Shown here piece by piece: positions 36,561-45,941 of a stretch of 64,000 nucleotides of DNA. How positions within the stretch are numbered: the stretch's first letter is position 1; every line of letters begins with the position of its first letter. Made by a program: the position numbers and the translations under genes. The notes beneath the pieces were generated by a model. It had not been told where the DNA came from and did no database searches. It saw nothing but the letters and a program-made list of their open reading frames with translations. The DNA is from Terriglobia bacterium (GTDB lineage Bacteria; Acidobacteriota; Terriglobia; Acidiferrales; UBA7541), in contig JAIQEV010000009.1 of the NCBI GenBank assembly GCA_020073585.1, forward strand, positions 1 through 64,000, in the 5' to 3' direction.

Positions 36561-38420
36561 ATGCGCGCCGAGAGGACACAATCACTCGGCATTCGTCCGG
36601 CTGCCGGGCTGCTTCTCCTTCTGCTTCCCCTGCTGCTGGGGCTTCCCCGCGCCGCACAGGGCCAGTCGGCGCCCGTGGTCGGCACCAAGCATGACCTCTC
36701 AGTCCCCGGGACGGTGAGCGGCCAGCCCTGCGTTTTCTGCCATACTCCGCACGACAGTTACGTTGCCGAGAAGCCCGATTGGAACCATCTGCTTTCGATT
36801 CAAACCTACACTCTGTACACGAGTACCACAACCAAAACCGTCATGCAGCAGCCCAACCAGTCCTCCAAGCAATGCCTGAGCTGCCATGATGGTACCGTGG
36901 CTCTCGGGCAGACCAAGGCTCAGGGCCTGCTCAACACTTCGCGGATTCTTGGCGCGGGGAAAAATCTCGGCGCCAATCTCAGCAACGACCACCCTATCAG
37001 CTTCACCCCGGTCAGCGACGGCCAGCTCGCTGCGTCGCTCTTTCTGACCCCTCCGGCCACCAAGGACCCCGCCGTGAAGCTGGTGGCGGGGGCCGTGGAA
37101 TGCACCACCTGTCATAACCCGCACATACCGAACAAGGACACGGTGGTTCCCAGCTTCCTGGTTCGCTCCAACGCTTCCAGCGCCATCTGCCTGGCCTGCC
37201 ATGACCCCTCCCAGCCGCGCCCCAACCGCTTGCAGGGATGGACCACAGGCTCGCACGGCACGGCTACCAACACCACGCCGGCCGCCGCGGGCTTCGGCGC
37301 CTACGGGACCGTGGCCCTGAACGCCTGCCTCAATTGCCACCTGCCCCACAATACGCCGGCCAACTCCAGCCCGCGCCTCCTGCGCCAATATGAAGAGGCC
37401 GCCTGCAGCCCCTGCCACAACGGCACCAACCTCACGCCCGCGCTGCTCAACGTGATGGGCGAGTTCAGCAAGGTCTATGCGCACCCCACGACCACCGTCA
37501 GCGGTCTGCACGAGGCCAACGAGAACGCCTTCCCCTTGAACGCCAACCGCCACGCGGAATGCCCCGATTGCCATAACGGGCACGCCGCCGCGAATGCCGG
37601 CGGCGCAGCCCTCCCGCCGGGTGTGCAATCGGCGCTGCTGGGAGCCACGGGGGTAAGCAACGCGGGAGGCGCGGTGAACCCGCAGCCGGCCAACAACGAG
37701 TACGAGGTGTGCTTCAAGTGCCACGCCGACAGCACCGGCAAGCCGCAATCCTCCGCGTATTCCGTCTACGGATACACGCCCTTCCGGGTGACCTTCGCCA
37801 CGTCCACGGATCCGTACAACGTGCGCCTGCAGATGCAATCCACCGCTTCCAGCCACCCCGTCACGCATGCGCGCAACAGCCCCTACCCGCAGTCCAGCCT
37901 GCGCGTCAACATGCTGACCCTCAGCTACACCGCGGGCCGGGCTATGGGCACCCAGGTCTACTGCACCGACTGCCACACCAACAATCAGGACCGCAATTTC
38001 GGCGGCCTGGGGCCCAACGGGCCGCACGGCTCCGCCTATCCGCACATCCTGGAGCGCAATTACCAGGTGAACACGCCTCCGGCGACTCCCGGCGGCACTT
38101 TCCCGAGCCTCACTTATTCCGCCGGAATCAACGGTCCGTTCGCCCTTTGCGAGAAATGCCACGAATTCACGAACAGCATTTTCCAGGACGCGACCTTCCG
38201 GCACAACATTCACAGCATTGGCGTCGGCGCTTCTTGCGCCATTTGCCACTCGCCCCATGGCGTGGCCAATTCCTCCGCCAACATCGGTCCGCGCCTGGTG
38301 AACTTCGACACCCATTTCGTCGGGCAAAACTCCGGCCGCCCCATTCAGTTCAACAAGGCCGGGCGCTACTGTGACCTCGTCTGCCACCAGCAGGCTCACG
38401 ATAGCGGGATGACATACTAA
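36561..38420 (+). CDS. Twelve-heme c-type cytochrome with OmcE-like N-terminal module
   Basis: A 619-aa exported cytochrome with 11 CXXCH motifs and one C-terminal CXXXCH (RYCDLVCHQQ). The signal is AAGLLLLLLPLLLGLPRAA. Residues 35-220 repeat the tetraheme pattern of the 32917 protein: CVFCHTPH, QCLSCHDG, SNDHPISF, VECTTCHNPH, then SFLVR and ICLACHD. The remaining eight motifs form a second domain. ATG 36561 abuts the NHL stop codon. A strong hairpin follows at 38437. It may cap, anchor or feed electrons to the tetraheme protein; this is inference. Confidence 0.9.
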   Translation: MRAERTQSLGIRPAAGLLLLLLPLLLGLPRAAQGQSAPVVGTKHDLSVPGTVSGQPCVFCHTPHDSYVAEKPDWNHLLSIQTYTLYTSTTTKTVMQQPNQSSKQCLSCHDGTVALGQTKAQGLLNTSRILGAGKNLGANLSNDHPISFTPVSDGQLAASLFLTPPATKDPAVKLVAGAVECTTCHNPHIPNKDTVVPSFLVRSNASSAICLACHDPSQPRPNRLQGWTTGSHGTATNTTPAAAGFGAYGTVALNACLNCHLPHNTPANSSPRLLRQYEEAACSPCHNGTNLTPALLNVMGEFSKVYAHPTTTVSGLHEANENAFPLNANRHAECPDCHNGHAAANAGGAALPPGVQSALLGATGVSNAGGAVNPQPANNEYEVCFKCHADSTGKPQSSAYSVYGYTPFRVTFATSTDPYNVRLQMQSTASSHPVTHARNSPYPQSSLRVNMLTLSYTAGRAMGTQVYCTDCHTNNQDRNFGGLGPNGPHGSAYPHILERNYQVNTPPATPGGTFPSLTYSAGINGPFALCEKCHEFTNSIFQDATFRHNIHSIGVGASCAICHSPHGVANSSANIGPRLVNFDTHFVGQNSGRPIQFNKAGRYCDLVCHQQAHDSGMTY

Positions 38421-38436
38421 GCCCTGCGCCCGTAGC

Positions 38437-38471
38437 CAGCCGGCCTCGCTCCAGCGGAACGAGGCCGGCTG
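38437..38471. terminator. Bidirectional hairpin between convergent cytochrome genes
   Basis: A perfect 12-bp GC-rich stem, CAGCCGGCCTCG (38437-38448) with CGAGGCCGGCTG (38460-38471), and an 11-nt loop. There is no T-tract on either side. Its position between two convergent genes supports a role in ending both transcripts. Confidence 0.65.
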
Positions 38472-38505
38472 ACCCGGGACAGGCTGTTCGGCTGTTCGGA
38501 ATCTT

Positions 38506-39354
38506 CTACTTGATCCAGCCGTTCGAGTGCAGGTGGCAGTCGTGACACGCTCTGGTCACGTTGTGGTCATGATCGACTGGGGCGCTGTTGTCGCGGCGAT
38601 GGTGATTGGTCCGCGTATGGCAGACATTGCAGGCCCCGTTGTACCAGCGGCTGCCCGGAGTCGTGGGGTCGGCAATCAACGGTTGTGCCCACTGGTTCTG
38701 CGCGGCTGTCGCCGGGGTGCGGTTGTCATAGAAAACCACCTTGCGCACTTGATCGGAGGCTGAAGGAGGATCGGTCTTGACGCAGGCGGGGTCGTTGGCG
38801 ATTCCACTCGAACAGTAGTAGCCGGTCATCACGTCGTCGGTGAATTTCGTCCTGCCTGTTCCGCCGTTGTCGCCGTTCGTATCCACGATAACGGGCCTGC
38901 GGATGCGGGCAAGGCCATCCGTTGAACTGGCCTCCTGCACCCAATCGCCCACGAGCATCCAGTTGCCATAGCCGTTGGGGGGATTCAAAGTCTCTGTGCC
39001 CTCCGCCTTTGCGTATCGGTGCGGGCTATGACAGCCGAGGCAACTGATCTTCCACGTGCCGTAGTTGGTCCGGGAATTAAAGTGCGTGGCCACCTTCACG
39101 GCGGTCTTCCCCGTTTGAGGATCCGTATACGTGCCGTTGTGACAGCTCAAACACAGGGCCTCGATGGCCGCTTCTCCGCGGGTCACCACGGTCCCGCCGT
39201 GCATATTGTGGCAGTAGGCGCAGGGCATCTTCAAACTTCGCCCAACGGAATTGAACGGCGGCGGAGTCGCCTGCGACCGAATGGCTGCCGGATAGGCCAG
39301 GAGTGTCCCCATTATGGCGAGTGAAGACCATAGAGTTGTACAAGTTCGGTTCAT
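38506..39354 (-). CDS. Pentaheme c-type cytochrome
   Basis: A 282-aa exported protein with five CXXCH motifs: CAYCHNMH, CLSCHNG, CLGCHSPH, CNVCHTRTNHH and CHDCHLH. The signal is WSSLAIMGTLLAYPAA. Between the third and fourth motifs lies a heme-free stretch of about 110 residues with Gly/Thr-rich sequence and two extra Cys (YYCSSG, DPACVK). The start overlaps the NHL lipoprotein stop by 4 nt as ATGA. It is convergent with the 12-heme gene and belongs to a second, minus-strand operon of the island. Confidence 0.9.
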   Translation of the reverse strand: MNRTCTTLWSSLAIMGTLLAYPAAIRSQATPPPFNSVGRSLKMPCAYCHNMHGGTVVTRGEAAIEALCLSCHNGTYTDPQTGKTAVKVATHFNSRTNYGTWKISCLGCHSPHRYAKAEGTETLNPPNGYGNWMLVGDWVQEASSTDGLARIRRPVIVDTNGDNGGTGRTKFTDDVMTGYYCSSGIANDPACVKTDPPSASDQVRKVVFYDNRTPATAAQNQWAQPLIADPTTPGSRWYNGACNVCHTRTNHHRRDNSAPVDHDHNVTRACHDCHLHSNGWIK

Positions 39355-40352
39355 GGCAATGCTCCTGCGTTCCGAAAGACTTCGATGCGTTTGAGCATGT
39401 TGTTCGTCACGTACAGGTCCTGGGATTTCGGGTCGAGGAACAGATCCAAAGGCAATTGAAGCTGGCCCGGTCCATCGCCGAAATCGCCCAGCTTCTTCAC
39501 CAGCGCCCCGGTGTTCCGGTCGAATACATAGACCTGCCCCAGAACAGACTCGGCCATGAAGATGTGCCCCCGGCCATCCACAGCAAGTCCTTGCGGACGG
39601 GAGAACAGGGCCGCTGGATCGACCGGTGGGGCGGGACCACCATCAATCTGTTTGAGGAGTGTGCCGCTGTAGCTGTACACCTGTATTCGCGCGGGCGCCG
39701 CGGGCGTGGACCAGCCATTGGGGTCGCCGTAGTCACTCACCACGATTTCCTTGTTCACTTCATCCACGGCGATTGCGACCGGGCTGAGCAGAGGCGGGTC
39801 GCTTGGGGACGGAAAGGTCCGGATCGGATTTCCCTTGAAATCGAAAACTTTGACCTTTCTCTCTCCGGAATCCATGACGAACACCAGCCCGAGATCTTGA
39901 TCCAAAGCGATGTCGCTCGGTATGCGGATGCTGCCCGGCTGGCCCGCAGGCGTAAAACCTAGATTGTATTGAAATTCGAGCGTTTTCCCGGATCCGCCGG
40001 AAGAGCCCTGGAGTCTATAAACCTCGACATTCTGCGTCGTGGAATTCCCAACGAAAACGAAGTTGGACCGGTACGCGATTCCCATGGGGGCGCTGGGAAC
40101 CTCGTAGGTCCATAGAATCTCGAGATTTCTTTCATCGAGCGCAAAGATCATTCCTTGCTGGCTGTCGGTCACAAGGATTTGGCCAGGGGGGCCATCCGTA
40201 ATGCGCATTGGGGACACCAGGATTGGCGGCGGCGTCTGGGCTCTCGGAACAGGGGCTGAAGCGCATGATGAAAGCATACAGATTATAATGACCGCTACCC
40301 AAACTGCCCGGCAGAGTTGCACCGTAAGTGATTTCTTACCAATAAGTTTCAT
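39351..40352 (-). CDS. NHL-repeat lipoprotein
   Basis: A 333-aa beta-propeller protein with a lipobox (CMLSSCASAP, lipidated Cys about residue 30), so it is membrane-anchored. Blades include MGIAYRSNFVFVGNS, DIALDQDLGLVFVMDSG, VAIAVDEVNKEIVVSDYG and GLAVDGRGHIFMAESV. The start at 40352 has GAGGTGA about 8 nt upstream. It is translationally coupled to the pentaheme cytochrome, repeating the NHL-plus-cytochrome pairing of the plus-strand operon. Confidence 0.88.
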   Translation of the reverse strand: MKLIGKKSLTVQLCRAVWVAVIIICMLSSCASAPVPRAQTPPPILVSPMRITDGPPGQILVTDSQQGMIFALDERNLEILWTYEVPSAPMGIAYRSNFVFVGNSTTQNVEVYRLQGSSGGSGKTLEFQYNLGFTPAGQPGSIRIPSDIALDQDLGLVFVMDSGERKVKVFDFKGNPIRTFPSPSDPPLLSPVAIAVDEVNKEIVVSDYGDPNGWSTPAAPARIQVYSYSGTLLKQIDGGPAPPVDPAALFSRPQGLAVDGRGHIFMAESVLGQVYVFDRNTGALVKKLGDFGDGPGQLQLPLDLFLDPKSQDLYVTNNMLKRIEVFRNAGALP

Positions 40353-42346: not shown

Positions 42347-42387
42347 ATGGCGCGCCCGGGGAGACTCGAACTCCCGACCCTCTGCTT
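42347..42387. repeat. tRNA-proximal att repeat (41 bp)
   Basis: This segment overlaps the 3' half of the intact tRNA-Arg gene and is identical to 29572-29612. It defines the second boundary of the putative island. Confidence 0.85.
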
Positions 42388-42424
42388 AGAAGGCAGACGC
42401 TCTTTCCAGCTGAGCTACGGGCGC
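42348..42424 (-). tRNA. tRNA-Arg (anticodon UCU)
   Basis: A complete cloverleaf: acceptor GCGCCCG with CGGGCGC, D-arm GCTC/GAGC, anticodon stem TCTGC/GCAGA with loop CTTCTAA (anticodon TCT, reading AGA), a 5-nt variable region, T-arm GGGAG/CTCCC with TTCGAGT, discriminator G and encoded CCA. Its 3' end points towards the cytochrome island. Confidence 0.97.
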
Positions 42425-42490: not shown

Positions 42491-43246
42491 TCACCATAGC
42501 TCTTTCGGCAGCGGCAGCCCCTCGAAATCGTCCTTCGCCAGCGGCTCTTTCGGTCTGACGCCCATGCCTTCCATCAATGCATAGAGCTGCCGCAGGTGCT
42601 GCGCCGCATGCCACGTGGTGCGCTCCAGCAGTTCCGCCGCGCTTTGCCGCCCGTAGTAGGTCTCCACGTCGCCCGCGAAGGCTTCCGCGCGCGTCCACCA
42701 CTCCGCCAGCCGCTCCCGCACCGTCGCGCCATAGCGCGCCAGCGACGCCGCGTCGCGCATCTCCCCCGGCGCGGTCTCCTGCAGCCAGCTTTCCGGATAC
42801 GTCCGCGTCTCCAGCGCGTCGCGGTATGCCGCGCTCAGCCGGAACAAGTGATACGCGAGATCGCGCACCGTGCGCTCGCGTTCCGGCACCTTCGCCTCCA
42901 GCCCCGCCGGCGGCACCTCCGGGATCGCGCGCCGCGCCGCCTCCACAATCCGTTCCAGCCGCCGCGCCAGCTCCGCCACCGCCAGCTTCTTCTCTCCGCT
43001 TTTCCCGTGGCGTTGCTCTTCAACGCCCACAAATCGCGCCAGCTCTTCCGGGTTCCATCCATGGAACAGCCGCTCGCCGTCCGTCACTACCGGCACCATG
43101 CGCATCCCGCGCCGCTCGAGCTCTTCCACCGCGGCGGCATTGCCCTCCACGTTCACCGCCTCAAACGCCACTCCCCAGGACGAAAGCAACTCTTTCGTCT
43201 TCGCGCAGGAGCTTCAACCCGGCCGGTAATACAGGCGCATCGCCAT
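42491..43246 (-). CDS. Glutaredoxin-DinB fusion selenoprotein (UxxC)
   Basis: A 251-aa protein when TGA at 43216-43214 is read as selenocysteine. It begins MAMRLYYRPG-U-SSCAKTKELL, a glutaredoxin active site in which the first Cys of the usual RPGCSSC is Sec11 and the resolving residue is Cys14. The thioredoxin fold continues through VEELERRGMRMVPVV (cis-Pro) to about residue 75. The rest is a DinB-like four-helix domain with metal-ligand His in RDLAYHLFRL and TTWHAAQHLRQLY, the fold of bacillithiol/mycothiol transferases. A SECIS-like hairpin follows the UGA. Without recoding, only a TGA-interrupted pseudogene would remain. It is divergent from mgtA. Confidence 0.85.
43171..43216 (-). promoter_or_regulatory. 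Predicted bacterial SECIS element in the glutaredoxin-DinB gene
   Basis: On the minus strand the UGA (43216-43214) is followed after 14 nt by a perfect 8-bp stem, GACGAAAG (43199-43192) with CTTTCGTC (43186-43179), and the loop AGTTG. A lower helix CTCC/GGAG is also possible. Spacing and loop match those of the CUAEP gene's hairpin. Confidence 0.75.
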
Positions 43247-43430
43247 CCCTTGTGCTTCTCCTTGCGCATGCGGCGCAGACCAATTCGCTCCGCCAATCTA
43301 GCCCGCCCCCGCCCCCCTGTCCAGTTCGCCCGCGGCTGACAGGCAAGTGCGCCCCGTGCCATACTCGACTCGCGCCCCGTCCTCCGCTGGCTTGCCGGGC
43401 GCGCACGGGGCCCCTTTCGGTGCAGCGCAC

Positions 43431-45941
43431 ATGCCCATACTGGCCGAGCCCGATCTCACCAAGGCGCCGCAGGAAGAAGGACTGACTGCGCACCAAGCCG
43501 AAGAGCGCCTCGCGCAGTACGGCCCCAACGACCCCAGCCCGCGCGTTAGCCGCTCCGAATTCCTCGAATTCCTCCACCTCTTTTTCAATCCCCTCATCGT
43601 CATCCTGCTGATTGCCAGCACCGTCGCTGCGTTTCTCGGAGAGCTGCTGAACGCCGGCCTCATCTTTGGCATGGTGCTGGTCGGCGTCGGCATCAATTTT
43701 GTCCAGACCTACCGCTCCAAGCGCGCCGTCGAGCTGCTCCGCGCGCGCGTCGCTCCCACTGCCACCGTTCTCCGCGACGCCGCCTGGCAGGAAATCCATC
43801 GCAGTGAAATCGTGCCTGGCGACCTTGTCCGCCTCTCCGCCGGCGACCTCGTTCCCGCTGACGCCCGCCTGCTCGTCGCCCGTGACCTTTTCGTGCAGCA
43901 GGCTGCCCTCACCGGCGAATCCATGCCCGTGGACAAAGAAGCGCTCCCGCGGCCCAGCGATCTCTCCGCAGGCCCCGCCGCCCCCGACCTCGTCTTCCTC
44001 GGCACCTCGGTTGTCAGCGGCACGGCCCTCGCCCGCGTGCTGGTCACCGGACCGCGCACGGCCTTCGGCTCCATCGCCGAGCGCCTGGCCATGCGTCCCG
44101 AAGAGACCGAATTCGAGCGCGGCTTGCGCCTGTTCGGTCTGCTCATCATGCGCACGGTCTTCTTCCTGGTGCTGTTCATCCTGGTCCTGCGCGTGGCCCT
44201 GCACAAGGACGCCCTCGAATCCCTGATCTTCGCCGTGGCCCTCGCCGTCGGCCTCACTCCCGAATTTCTCCCCATGATCACTTCCGTCACTCTGGCCAAG
44301 GGCGCGGTGCGCATGGCCCAGGTCAAGGTCATCGTCAAGCACCTCTCCGCCATCCAGAATCTCGGCAGTATTGACGTCCTCTGCAGCGACAAGACCGGCA
44401 CGCTCACGCGCGGCGAAATGTCGTTGGAAAAAATACTCGACGCCGCCGGCCAGCCCGCCGAGCGCCCCCTCCTCCTCGCCTATCTCAACAGCAAGTTCGA
44501 AACCGGCATCCGCAGCCCCCTGGACGCCACCATCCTGCAGGCCCAGGTCTCGCACGCCGAGGAATATTCCAAGCGCGATGAAATTCCCTTCGACTTCGAG
44601 CGTCGCCGCCTCTCCATCGTCGTCGACCAGAAATCCGCCGCCGGATCGCGGCACCTGCTCATCACCAAAGGCGCTCCTGAAGGCATCCTGACCTTGTGCG
44701 TGGCCTGCGAGATGGACGCCCAGCGCGTGCCGATGGACCAAGCGGCGCACCAGCGCTGCGCCCAGCTCTACCAGACGCTGTGTGCCGACGGCTTCCGCGT
44801 TCTCGCCGTCGCCTGGCGCGAAGTCCAGCTCACCGATGGCCTCTCCGTCCAGGACGAAAGGGAACTGACTCTTGCCGGCTTCCTGGCCTTCTCCGACCCG
44901 CTCCGTGAGGATGCCGCCTTGGCGCAGCAGGCCCTGGTACGCGATGGCGTGCAGCTGAAAATCCTCACCGGCGATAACGAGCTCGTCGCCCGCCATATCT
45001 GCCAGCAGCTCGGCGTTACGGATCCCCCCACCGTGCTTGGCGAGGAGCTCGAGCACACCAGTGACGCCGCACTCGGCCACGTCGCCGAGCAGACCATGCT
45101 CTTCGCCCGCATCTCTCCCATGCAGAAGCACCGCGTCATCCTGGCCCTCAAGCACCGCTCCCACGTCGTCGGCTACATCGGCGACGGCATCAACGATGCC
45201 CCCTCTCTGCACGCCGCCGACGTGGGCATCTCCGTCTCTACCGCCGTGGACATCGCCCGCGACGCCGCCGACCTCATCCTCGTCGAACCCGGCCTCAACG
45301 TCCTGCATGGCGGCATCATCGAAGGCCGCAAGGCCTCCGCCAACGTCCTGAAATATCTGCTCATGGGCACCAGCTCCAACTTTGGCAACATGTTCAGCAT
45401 GGCCGCCGCTTCGCTCTTTCTCCCCTTCCTGCCCATGCTCCCCCTGCAGATCCTCCTCAACAATTTTCTCTACGACCTCGCCCAGGTCACCATCCCCACC
45501 GACAACGTCGAGGACCAGCAATTGCGTTCCCCGCAGCGCTGGGACCTGCGCCTCATCCGCAACTTCATGCTCGCCATCGGCCCCGTCAGCTCCCTCTACG
45601 ACTTCCTCACCTTCTACGTCCTCCTCGCCGTCTTCCACGCCAGCGAGCCGCTCTTTCACACCGGCTGGTTCGTCGAGTCCCTCGCCACTCAAACCCTGGT
45701 CCTCTTCGTCATCCGCACCATGGGCCATCCGCTGCGCAGCCGTCCCAGCCGCCCGCTCACCGTCACCACTCTGCTCATCGTCCTCATCGGCGTCTTCCTT
45801 CCGTTCTCACCGGCCGCGCATATCCTCGGCTTCACCGCGCTCCCCGCAAAGTACTTTGCCTTCCTCATCTTCGCCGCCGTCACTTATCTGGTCCTCGTCG
45901 AACTCGTGAAGCGCCGCCTCTTCGCCGCCCACCGTCCCTGA
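43431..45941 (+). CDS. mgtA: Magnesium-translocating P-type ATPase (MgtA/MgtB type)
   Basis: An 836-aa P3B-type ATPase that imports Mg2+ at the inner membrane. In order: N-terminal actuator helices, LTGES (actuator domain), VGLTPEFLPMITSVTLAKGAV (the transmembrane segment diagnostic for MgtA/B), phosphorylation site DKTGTLT with Asp320, LTGDN, GDGINDAPSLH near residue 585, and a C-terminal six-helix bundle. ATG 43431 is chosen because upstream sequence in frame is low-complexity and lacks family similarity. No leader with an obvious Mg2+ sensor was recognised in the 184 bp before it. Confidence 0.9.
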   Translation: MPILAEPDLTKAPQEEGLTAHQAEERLAQYGPNDPSPRVSRSEFLEFLHLFFNPLIVILLIASTVAAFLGELLNAGLIFGMVLVGVGINFVQTYRSKRAVELLRARVAPTATVLRDAAWQEIHRSEIVPGDLVRLSAGDLVPADARLLVARDLFVQQAALTGESMPVDKEALPRPSDLSAGPAAPDLVFLGTSVVSGTALARVLVTGPRTAFGSIAERLAMRPEETEFERGLRLFGLLIMRTVFFLVLFILVLRVALHKDALESLIFAVALAVGLTPEFLPMITSVTLAKGAVRMAQVKVIVKHLSAIQNLGSIDVLCSDKTGTLTRGEMSLEKILDAAGQPAERPLLLAYLNSKFETGIRSPLDATILQAQVSHAEEYSKRDEIPFDFERRRLSIVVDQKSAAGSRHLLITKGAPEGILTLCVACEMDAQRVPMDQAAHQRCAQLYQTLCADGFRVLAVAWREVQLTDGLSVQDERELTLAGFLAFSDPLREDAALAQQALVRDGVQLKILTGDNELVARHICQQLGVTDPPTVLGEELEHTSDAALGHVAEQTMLFARISPMQKHRVILALKHRSHVVGYIGDGINDAPSLHAADVGISVSTAVDIARDAADLILVEPGLNVLHGGIIEGRKASANVLKYLLMGTSSNFGNMFSMAAASLFLPFLPMLPLQILLNNFLYDLAQVTIPTDNVEDQQLRSPQRWDLRLIRNFMLAIGPVSSLYDFLTFYVLLAVFHASEPLFHTGWFVESLATQTLVLFVIRTMGHPLRSRPSRPLTVTTLLIVLIGVFLPFSPAAHILGFTALPAKYFAFLIFAAVTYLVLVELVKRRLFAAHRP

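Follow-up and report, generated by a model that had tools for sequence, protein, structure and literature searches.

A redoxin–DinB fusion gene with an in-frame UGA codon

The DNA analysed here (the window: one stretch of 64,000 nucleotides from the genome of a soil acidobacterium) contains on its minus strand a gene that joins a glutaredoxin-like domain, with a UGA codon very probably read as selenocysteine (Sec) in its redox motif, to a DinB-like domain, and that stays hidden from mechanical calling of open reading frames (Table 1). Translation from ATG 43246 gives MAMRLYYRPG-UGA-SSCAKTKELLSSWG..., and the frame then continues without interruption to a second UGA, which we take as the stop; both ATG 43246 and ATG 43240 are candidate starts. 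A preliminary description of this DNA had read RPG-U-SSC from ATG 43246 in a frame running through to 42491, and had remarked that standard gene calling starts after the UGA. The translation bears out the first point, and the second is likewise confirmed, as the called frame begins at TTG 43189, past the UGA, so that the active site is lost. The length of the fusion frame is in itself weak evidence, because the DNA is GC-rich and a frame of 302 amino acids runs antisense to the gene.

Table 1. Features of the fusion gene and its surroundings, in positions of the window
Feature	Coordinates	Strand	Basis or detail
Full fusion coding region, 251 aa	42491..43246	minus	Translation and relatives; stop TGA 42493-42491
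Truncated ORF, TTG start 43189, without active site	42491..43189	minus	Mechanical ORF calling
NrdH/glutaredoxin-like domain, residues 1-76	43019..43246	minus	PF00462; structures 1h75, 3zit, 7c10, 7c12
UGA codon 11, very probably read as selenocysteine	43214..43216	minus	TGA in 78/92 distinct fusions, TGC/TGT in 14/92
Cys14, resolving cysteine of UxxC	43205..43207	minus	Cys in 90/90 aligned rows
Predicted SECIS hairpin, 8-bp stem, 5-nt loop AGUUG	43179..43199	minus	-8.9 kcal/mol, loop 22 nt after UGA
DinB/YfiT (S-transferase-like) helical domain, residues 88-239 approximately	42530..42985	minus	Structure match and sequence profile
His133, first of putative metal-binding triad	42848..42850	minus	His in 90/90 rows
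His213, putative triad	42608..42610	minus	His in 89/90 rows
His217, putative triad	42596..42598	minus	His in 90/90 rows
tRNA-Arg(TCT), neighbour outside the system, 66 bases downstream	42348..42424	minus	Rfam match

The tRNA-Arg gene is the sole Rfam match at gathering score within the window. Divergent from the fusion gene lies a magnesium-translocating P-type ATPase (positions 43347-45941, plus strand; TIGR01524, 886.7 bits, above its cut-off). Elsewhere in the window, positions 36561-39354 hold two proteins with several CxxCH haem-binding motifs recognized by eye, and next to these lies a protein that matches NHL/ScyF below threshold (39354-40352).

Distribution of the family and identity of codon 11

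A search of 61 genomes recovered two same-genus relatives, 70-71% identical to the window protein and with one TGA each, and otherwise only short redoxins. A third relative from Acidobacteriota (G071), which belongs to another family and is 35% identical, retains the UGA along with much the greater part of the stem discussed below. Scanning named genome contigs gave 30 loci, with titles that are mostly Rokubacteria and otherwise Binatota, Acidobacteria, Terriglobia, Blastocatellia, Tectomicrobia, Lambdaproteobacteria and Alphaproteobacteria; all 30 records are titled as metagenome assemblies, and these taxa are the titles as deposited. The contig scan used the amino-acid patterns [YF][YT][RQ]PGCSSC and [AL]KTKE[LF]LS[SD], and therefore favoured those residues but not any choice of codon. 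An earlier scan of genome contigs with the window protein alone gave no match, and plasmid records gave none to one alphaproteobacterial family member.

Profile searches extended the family, whose members occur in several uncultured bacterial groups. Among 399 genomes from the class of the window there were 4 full-length matches, and among 396 from its phylum there were 2 (own genome included in both); the class to which a Rokubacteria record belongs gave 48 from 95 genomes, and the phylum to which the Binatota record belongs gave 2 from 247. Every one of these matches contains exactly one internal TGA, at the position of codon 11 (4/4, 2/2, 48/48 and 2/2, respectively). A fifth group behaves differently: in the class of genome G759, which we call alphaproteobacteria-like on the strength of the title of locus L079 and the likeness of L079 to L076, 32 of 385 genomes hold 33 full-length matches, of which 19 have TGA, 10 TGC and 4 TGT at the same place. 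Outside this class TGA is found in 59/59 distinct fusions, window included, and it is this conservation that goes beyond chance. Cysteine homologues, for which the preliminary description had proposed a search, number 14 TGC or TGT genes among 92 distinct fusions; the notion of a family without a Cys form was accordingly rejected, since 14 of the 33 matches in the G759 class lack TGA. One genome, G1400, has both a Sec copy (L193) and a Cys copy (L174). In a quick tree of 90 rows, Sec and Cys must have been exchanged four times or more, with many open forks in the part concerned.

The counts rest on the following accounting. Merging identical proteins reduced 89 six-frame hits (of at least about 200 model positions) to 59 distinct ones, and L151, which was read by hand (motif RKG-U-ASC, spanning 1-235 of the model), brings these to 60, including L143 and L075. 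Since L076 (the same gene as L152) belongs to the G759 class, 59 of the 60 lie outside it. Alignment A7 comprises 59 rows, namely the 60 without L151 and with L076 included; the tree leaves out L143, L151 and L152; and L075 was left out of alignment A8 and of the codon analysis while being kept in A6, A7 and the tree. The frame-broken L079/L080 and the partial L078/L142 do not count as full-length (L078 and L079 are in A6), and L162, which duplicates the gene L189, was removed.

At least four genomes of the Rokubacteria class that carry the full fusion also encode DinB-only paralogues without the redoxin half (L118 in G815, L119 in G816, L120 in G813 and L121 in G817), whose upstream gene resembles a VCBS-repeat protein by eye. 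In one alphaproteobacterial assembly, two contigs (L079 and L080) carry the same fusion with a frame break within the redoxin part.

These data bear directly on whether the UGA might be a true stop, with the gene either yielding the TTG-started truncated protein or decaying. Mechanical ORF calling does return such a product, and a few members are damaged: besides L079/L080, L143 contains an additional in-frame TAG and is truncated, and L075 has apparent frame errors in its DinB part. Relatives with frame-disrupting mutations around the UGA had been named in advance as a sign of a pseudogene. Yet the frame ahead of the UGA is conserved despite these few damaged members, records whose titles name several phyla retain the UGA, there are Cys forms, and the stem downstream is under constraint at the RNA level (see below). 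We therefore rejected the stop or pseudogene reading, to which we assign a negligible probability.

A hairpin downstream of the UGA is constrained at the RNA level

Published limits for bacterial SECIS elements allow a loop of 3-9 nt whose first two positions include a G, a stem of 4-16 bp, a spacing of 16-37 nt and an energy of at most -7.5 kcal/mol (PMC13188914, section 5), and the hairpin in the window falls inside all of them. In the three same-genus sequences the DNA after the UGA is near-identical, including the stem GACGAAAG/CUUUCGUC except for its outermost base. With Met, Trp and Sec set aside, an alignment of 27 rows has 58 columns in which amino-acid conservation is 90% or more; in only four of these is the codon invariant too, and three of the four sit in the hairpin (ACG 17, GAG 19 and TCG 22). 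At 31 rows the alignment indicated constraint on the stem and no compensatory change.

Compensatory changes appear in the larger alignment. Over 59 rows (51 distinct, L076 included), 90.7% of cells in the eight-pair stem are paired; in 7 rows one pair has become C-G in place of A-U, and in 12 the neighbouring pair has become G-C in place of A-U. Changes on both sides of a pair affect 19 cells, against a shuffled mean of 7.6, and 0/500 shuffles reach as high a value for this quantity, for cells paired or for the covariation score, although relatedness among the rows inflates both the shuffle and the covariation tests. The number of pairs changed on both sides is not unusual (422/500 shuffles as high). 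When the structure is slid by one column, 16 cells are also changed on both sides, yet just 40% of cells are then paired. The protein follows these changes: a CGN codon at 18 (Arg18) goes with GCG at codon 22 (Ala22) in 7/7 cases, against 4/53 for other codons, so that covariation between residues 18 and 22 runs by way of the RNA. In terms of folding energy, 33 of the 59 rows of A7 reach -7.5 kcal/mol in a fixed window, and in 23 of the 59 a strict scan finds an uninterrupted stem that reaches the same energy (shuffles, 11%). Folded one sequence at a time, the 61-base region gives unremarkable z-scores (-0.44 to -0.66 for three sequences). On the evidence of these alignments, we conclude that the proximal stem is under RNA-level constraint.

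The position of the SECIS element differs within the family

Of the 19 Sec genes in the G759 class, 18 have a degraded proximal stem, with 4 to 6 of its 8 pairs left, and in none of these 18 does the proximal hairpin reach -7.5 kcal/mol. The same 18 genes have a different hairpin further downstream, in which 92.4% of cells are paired (59.7% at most when the structure is slid) and three pairs, amounting to 9 cells, are changed on both sides. This distal hairpin reaches -7.5 kcal/mol in 15/18, and its loop lies 36-37 bases after the UGA, at the edge of the published range. Such a hairpin is present in only 1 of the 14 Cys genes, which as a group are 42.0% paired at the distal place and 42.9% at the proximal one, no better than slid versions; likewise, TCG at codon 22 occurs in 18/19 Sec genes and in 0/14 Cys genes. 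The hairpin being well paired in Sec genes and poorly paired in Cys genes, the RNA element goes with selenocysteine and not with the protein. At the distal place, the 59 rows of A7 are 64.7% paired with no excess covariation.

Two genes of this set stand apart. L152 (the same gene as L076) has the proximal type only, and L192 (L192:4043-4099) has the distal hairpin preceded by a remnant of the proximal consensus (ACGAAAGAGTT); the two are possible intermediates of a move of the SECIS element. Judged by these comparative pairing patterns, the place of the predicted SECIS differs within one gene family.

Selenocysteine machinery in genomes that hold the fusion

The window's genome encodes SelB (359.7 bits, above the curated cut-off) and a tRNA-Sec with anticodon TCA. 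At a threshold of E<=1e-9, which was our own choice, tRNA-Sec is found in 11 of 16 holders examined and not in the remaining five (G071, G748, G750, G759 and G1046), where incomplete assembly is a possible cause. One relative has two tRNA-Sec genes about 3.6 kb apart (G009:C2:1112064-1115807). The window's genome also has a second glutaredoxin-like gene, without DinB and with the motif QPG-U-IFC (L002:1501-1710, equivalent to G000:C88:9181-9390), which probably contains selenocysteine as well; short redoxins with TGA similar to this gene occur in several relatives.

Domains, folds and conserved residues

Assignment of the N-terminal half is straightforward: PF00462 matches the window protein at 44 bits (cut-off 22.9) and 57/57 family rows at E<=0.01. 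For the C-terminal half, Pfam scores on the window protein fall below the cut-offs (18.0 of 23 bits for DinB, PF05163; 18.3 of 24.8 for DinB_2, PF12867), while DinB_2 matches 53/57 family rows at E<=0.01. Because the Pfam cut-offs are not reached and both the fold and the His triad are present, we call this domain DinB-like.

An AlphaFold2 model built from 57 family rows has a mean pLDDT of 91.1 and a pTM of 0.85, with a weak linker at residues 80-84. Matches of its DinB part to DinB/YfiT proteins span about residues 86-239, the best being PDB 6iz2 (Z 15.2, rmsd 2.3 over 141 residues), followed by 3gor (Z 14.2) and 1rxq (Z 13.3), both of which are also recovered by sequence profile (E 0.00069 and E 0.0065, respectively); matches to 8f5v, a mycothiol S-transferase with mycothiol and zinc (Z 12.6), and to 2nsg (12.0) lie below the value of about 13 at which the tool advises caution for helical bundles. 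Residues 1-76 match 3zit (Z 13.3), 7c12 (12.7) and 1h75 (12.5). Structure matches to glutathione S-transferases (GST), of middling quality, were set aside as reflecting a shared layout only.

According to excerpts of PMC5815605, three histidines are the only residues common to eight bacillithiol transferases of B. subtilis. His133, His213 and His217 of the window protein correspond to the triad as given there, both in order and in HxxxH spacing.

Gene neighbourhood

Among Rokubacteria the same flanking genes recur, with up to 27 of 59 loci sharing them, which is what common descent predicts. In the G759 class the commonest neighbours appear in just 3/32 loci. Outside Rokubacteria one cluster of neighbours, short-chain dehydrogenase-like by eye, occurs at unequal positions in 5 loci, including Binatota L053 and acidobacterial L146; we gave it no weight. 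Neighbour clustering yielded no conserved gene neighbour that would support the pathway proposed below.

A proposed chemistry and its alternatives

The preliminary description had read the first residue of the redox motif in a fusion protein as Sec, and it is supported by the relatives and their Cys forms, by the compensatory changes in the stem, by the Sec machinery and by the confident two-domain model. That the gene encodes a selenoprotein fusion we regard as virtually certain. We are also confident, a step less firmly, of its identity as a selenoprotein with a redox domain and a domain with a putative metal site; this second confidence covers identity only, and the first two alternatives weighed below contest the coupling of the domains rather than the selenoprotein.

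UGA 11 is very probably decoded as Sec through the SECIS hairpin inside the coding sequence, giving the NrdH/glutaredoxin-like domain a Sec11-Cys14 redox pair. The DinB domain would bind a divalent metal through His133, His213 and His217, and in the mechanism that we envisage a small thiol activated at this metal could be added to an electrophilic substrate or exchanged on a disulfide one. The selenolate might then attack or reduce the resulting mixed disulfide or adduct, to be regenerated through Cys14 by a donor of the thioredoxin-reductase type. NrdH-type redoxins draw their electrons from thioredoxin reductase. As far as sequences and models can indicate, a coupling of the Sec-redoxin to thiol-transfer chemistry in the DinB domain is a tentative reading, to which we give somewhat less than an even chance.

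We rate about equally the alternative that the two domains work independently, the protein being a general NrdH-like disulfide reductase whose DinB part serves only in metal binding, dimerisation or targeting. The closest resemblance of the glutaredoxin part to stand-alone redoxins would fit this arrangement, as would the DinB-only paralogues in at least four fusion-holding genomes of the Rokubacteria class (G813, G815, G816 and G817) and the lack of a conserved neighbour hinting at a dedicated substrate. Pulling the other way, the fusion is kept across several phyla (by titles as deposited) with its His triad almost invariant, suggesting catalysis or ligand binding at the DinB site, and the predicted pTM appears compatible with a fixed arrangement of the domains.

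The preliminary description had named bacillithiol and mycothiol S-transferases among the DinB-fold proteins. A bacillithiol-specific reading would make the protein a Sec-bacilliredoxin fused to a bacillithiol transferase, an idea encouraged by excerpts of PMC5815605 in which eight divergent DinB/STL proteins of B. subtilis are metal-dependent bacillithiol transferases. The bacillithiol marker BshC is found in 6 of 18 holders, and these are all six of the Acidobacteriota holders tested, the window's genome included; it was not found in any of the 12 holders from outside Acidobacteriota. GshB is found in 4 of 20 holders (G748, G759, G760 and G1046), of which the three tested for BshC lack it, and the Rokubacteria holders tested have neither BshC nor GshB that we could see. 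By this marker a bacillithiol link would extend to the Acidobacteriota holders and not to the 12 others examined, and since thiol-biosynthesis markers differ among holders, no single small-thiol partner is indicated. Dependence across the family on bacillithiol or on a glutathione-type thiol alone is unlikely by these markers, and the bacillithiol-specific reading of the fusion is, in our estimation, improbable.

Returning to the coupled mechanism, its fullest form would make the protein a single-chain seleno-thiol transferase with a GST-like layout and two chemistries, in which the metal-activated thiol of the DinB site and the selenolate of the redoxin would act in turn on one substrate, conjugation being followed by reductive release. 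In this complete form we consider the proposal rather unlikely. As a separate point, the SECIS element of the family has probably moved between two positions in the gene, the amino acids following the RNA.

Relation to known families

Several known groups share parts of this architecture. Selenoprotein glutaredoxins have the same glutaredoxin fold and UxxC motif, and cGrx1 of Clostridium oremlandii (7c10/7c12), whose natural form carries Sec to judge by a cited title, is among the best matches of the glutaredoxin part; the window protein adds a DinB domain of about 150 residues. NrdH-redoxin likewise shares the fold, as the match to 1h75 indicates, but the corresponding model TIGR02194 matches only weakly (46 bits, against a cut-off of 85.75), and the window protein differs in having Sec for Cys and in being a fusion. 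The UXX-star families and the HUGP/GUXX-star fusion of NCBIfam are also glutaredoxin-like selenoproteins, one of them a fusion, whereas their models reach only 40.4 of 66 bits (NF041212) and 27.5 of 325 (NF045501), and the partner domain differs by name. Among the NCBIfam models listed for the window protein, none reaches its cut-off. The DinB/YfiT superfamily, which includes BstA-H, mycothiol S-transferase and mycothiol-dependent maleylpyruvate isomerase, shares the fold and the His triad with its HxxxH, and the window protein is set apart from it by the N-terminal Sec-redoxin. For two-domain DinB members, excerpts of PMC5815605 name DinB first, followed by a second domain with another function.

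A 2026 review (PMC13188914) covers 119 prokaryotic selenoprotein families, including glutaredoxin, UXX-star and other fusions. Its Table 1 lists Sec-glutaredoxin as experimentally verified, under PF00462 and with no DinB domain mentioned; its family table has no DinB entry, and the word DinB is absent from its text. By word count, DinB is also absent from the main texts of PMC1794560, PMC5029168 and PMC12013277. Literature searches at the level of titles and the starts of abstracts gave no such fusion among the matches listed; PMC12013261 and candidates from groundwater genomes fall outside that scope and could mention the family. We conclude that this is a real selenoprotein family, absent from the published selenoprotein lists searched.

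The family adds to the known selenoproteins one with a full-length copy in 48 of the 95 Rokubacteria-class genomes examined. It also illustrates clearly how RNA structure and protein residues can be linked, in that K18R together with S22A follows the pairing of the stem. Finally, its natural Sec/Cys pairs, with both forms in one genome, offer a test of what selenium gains.
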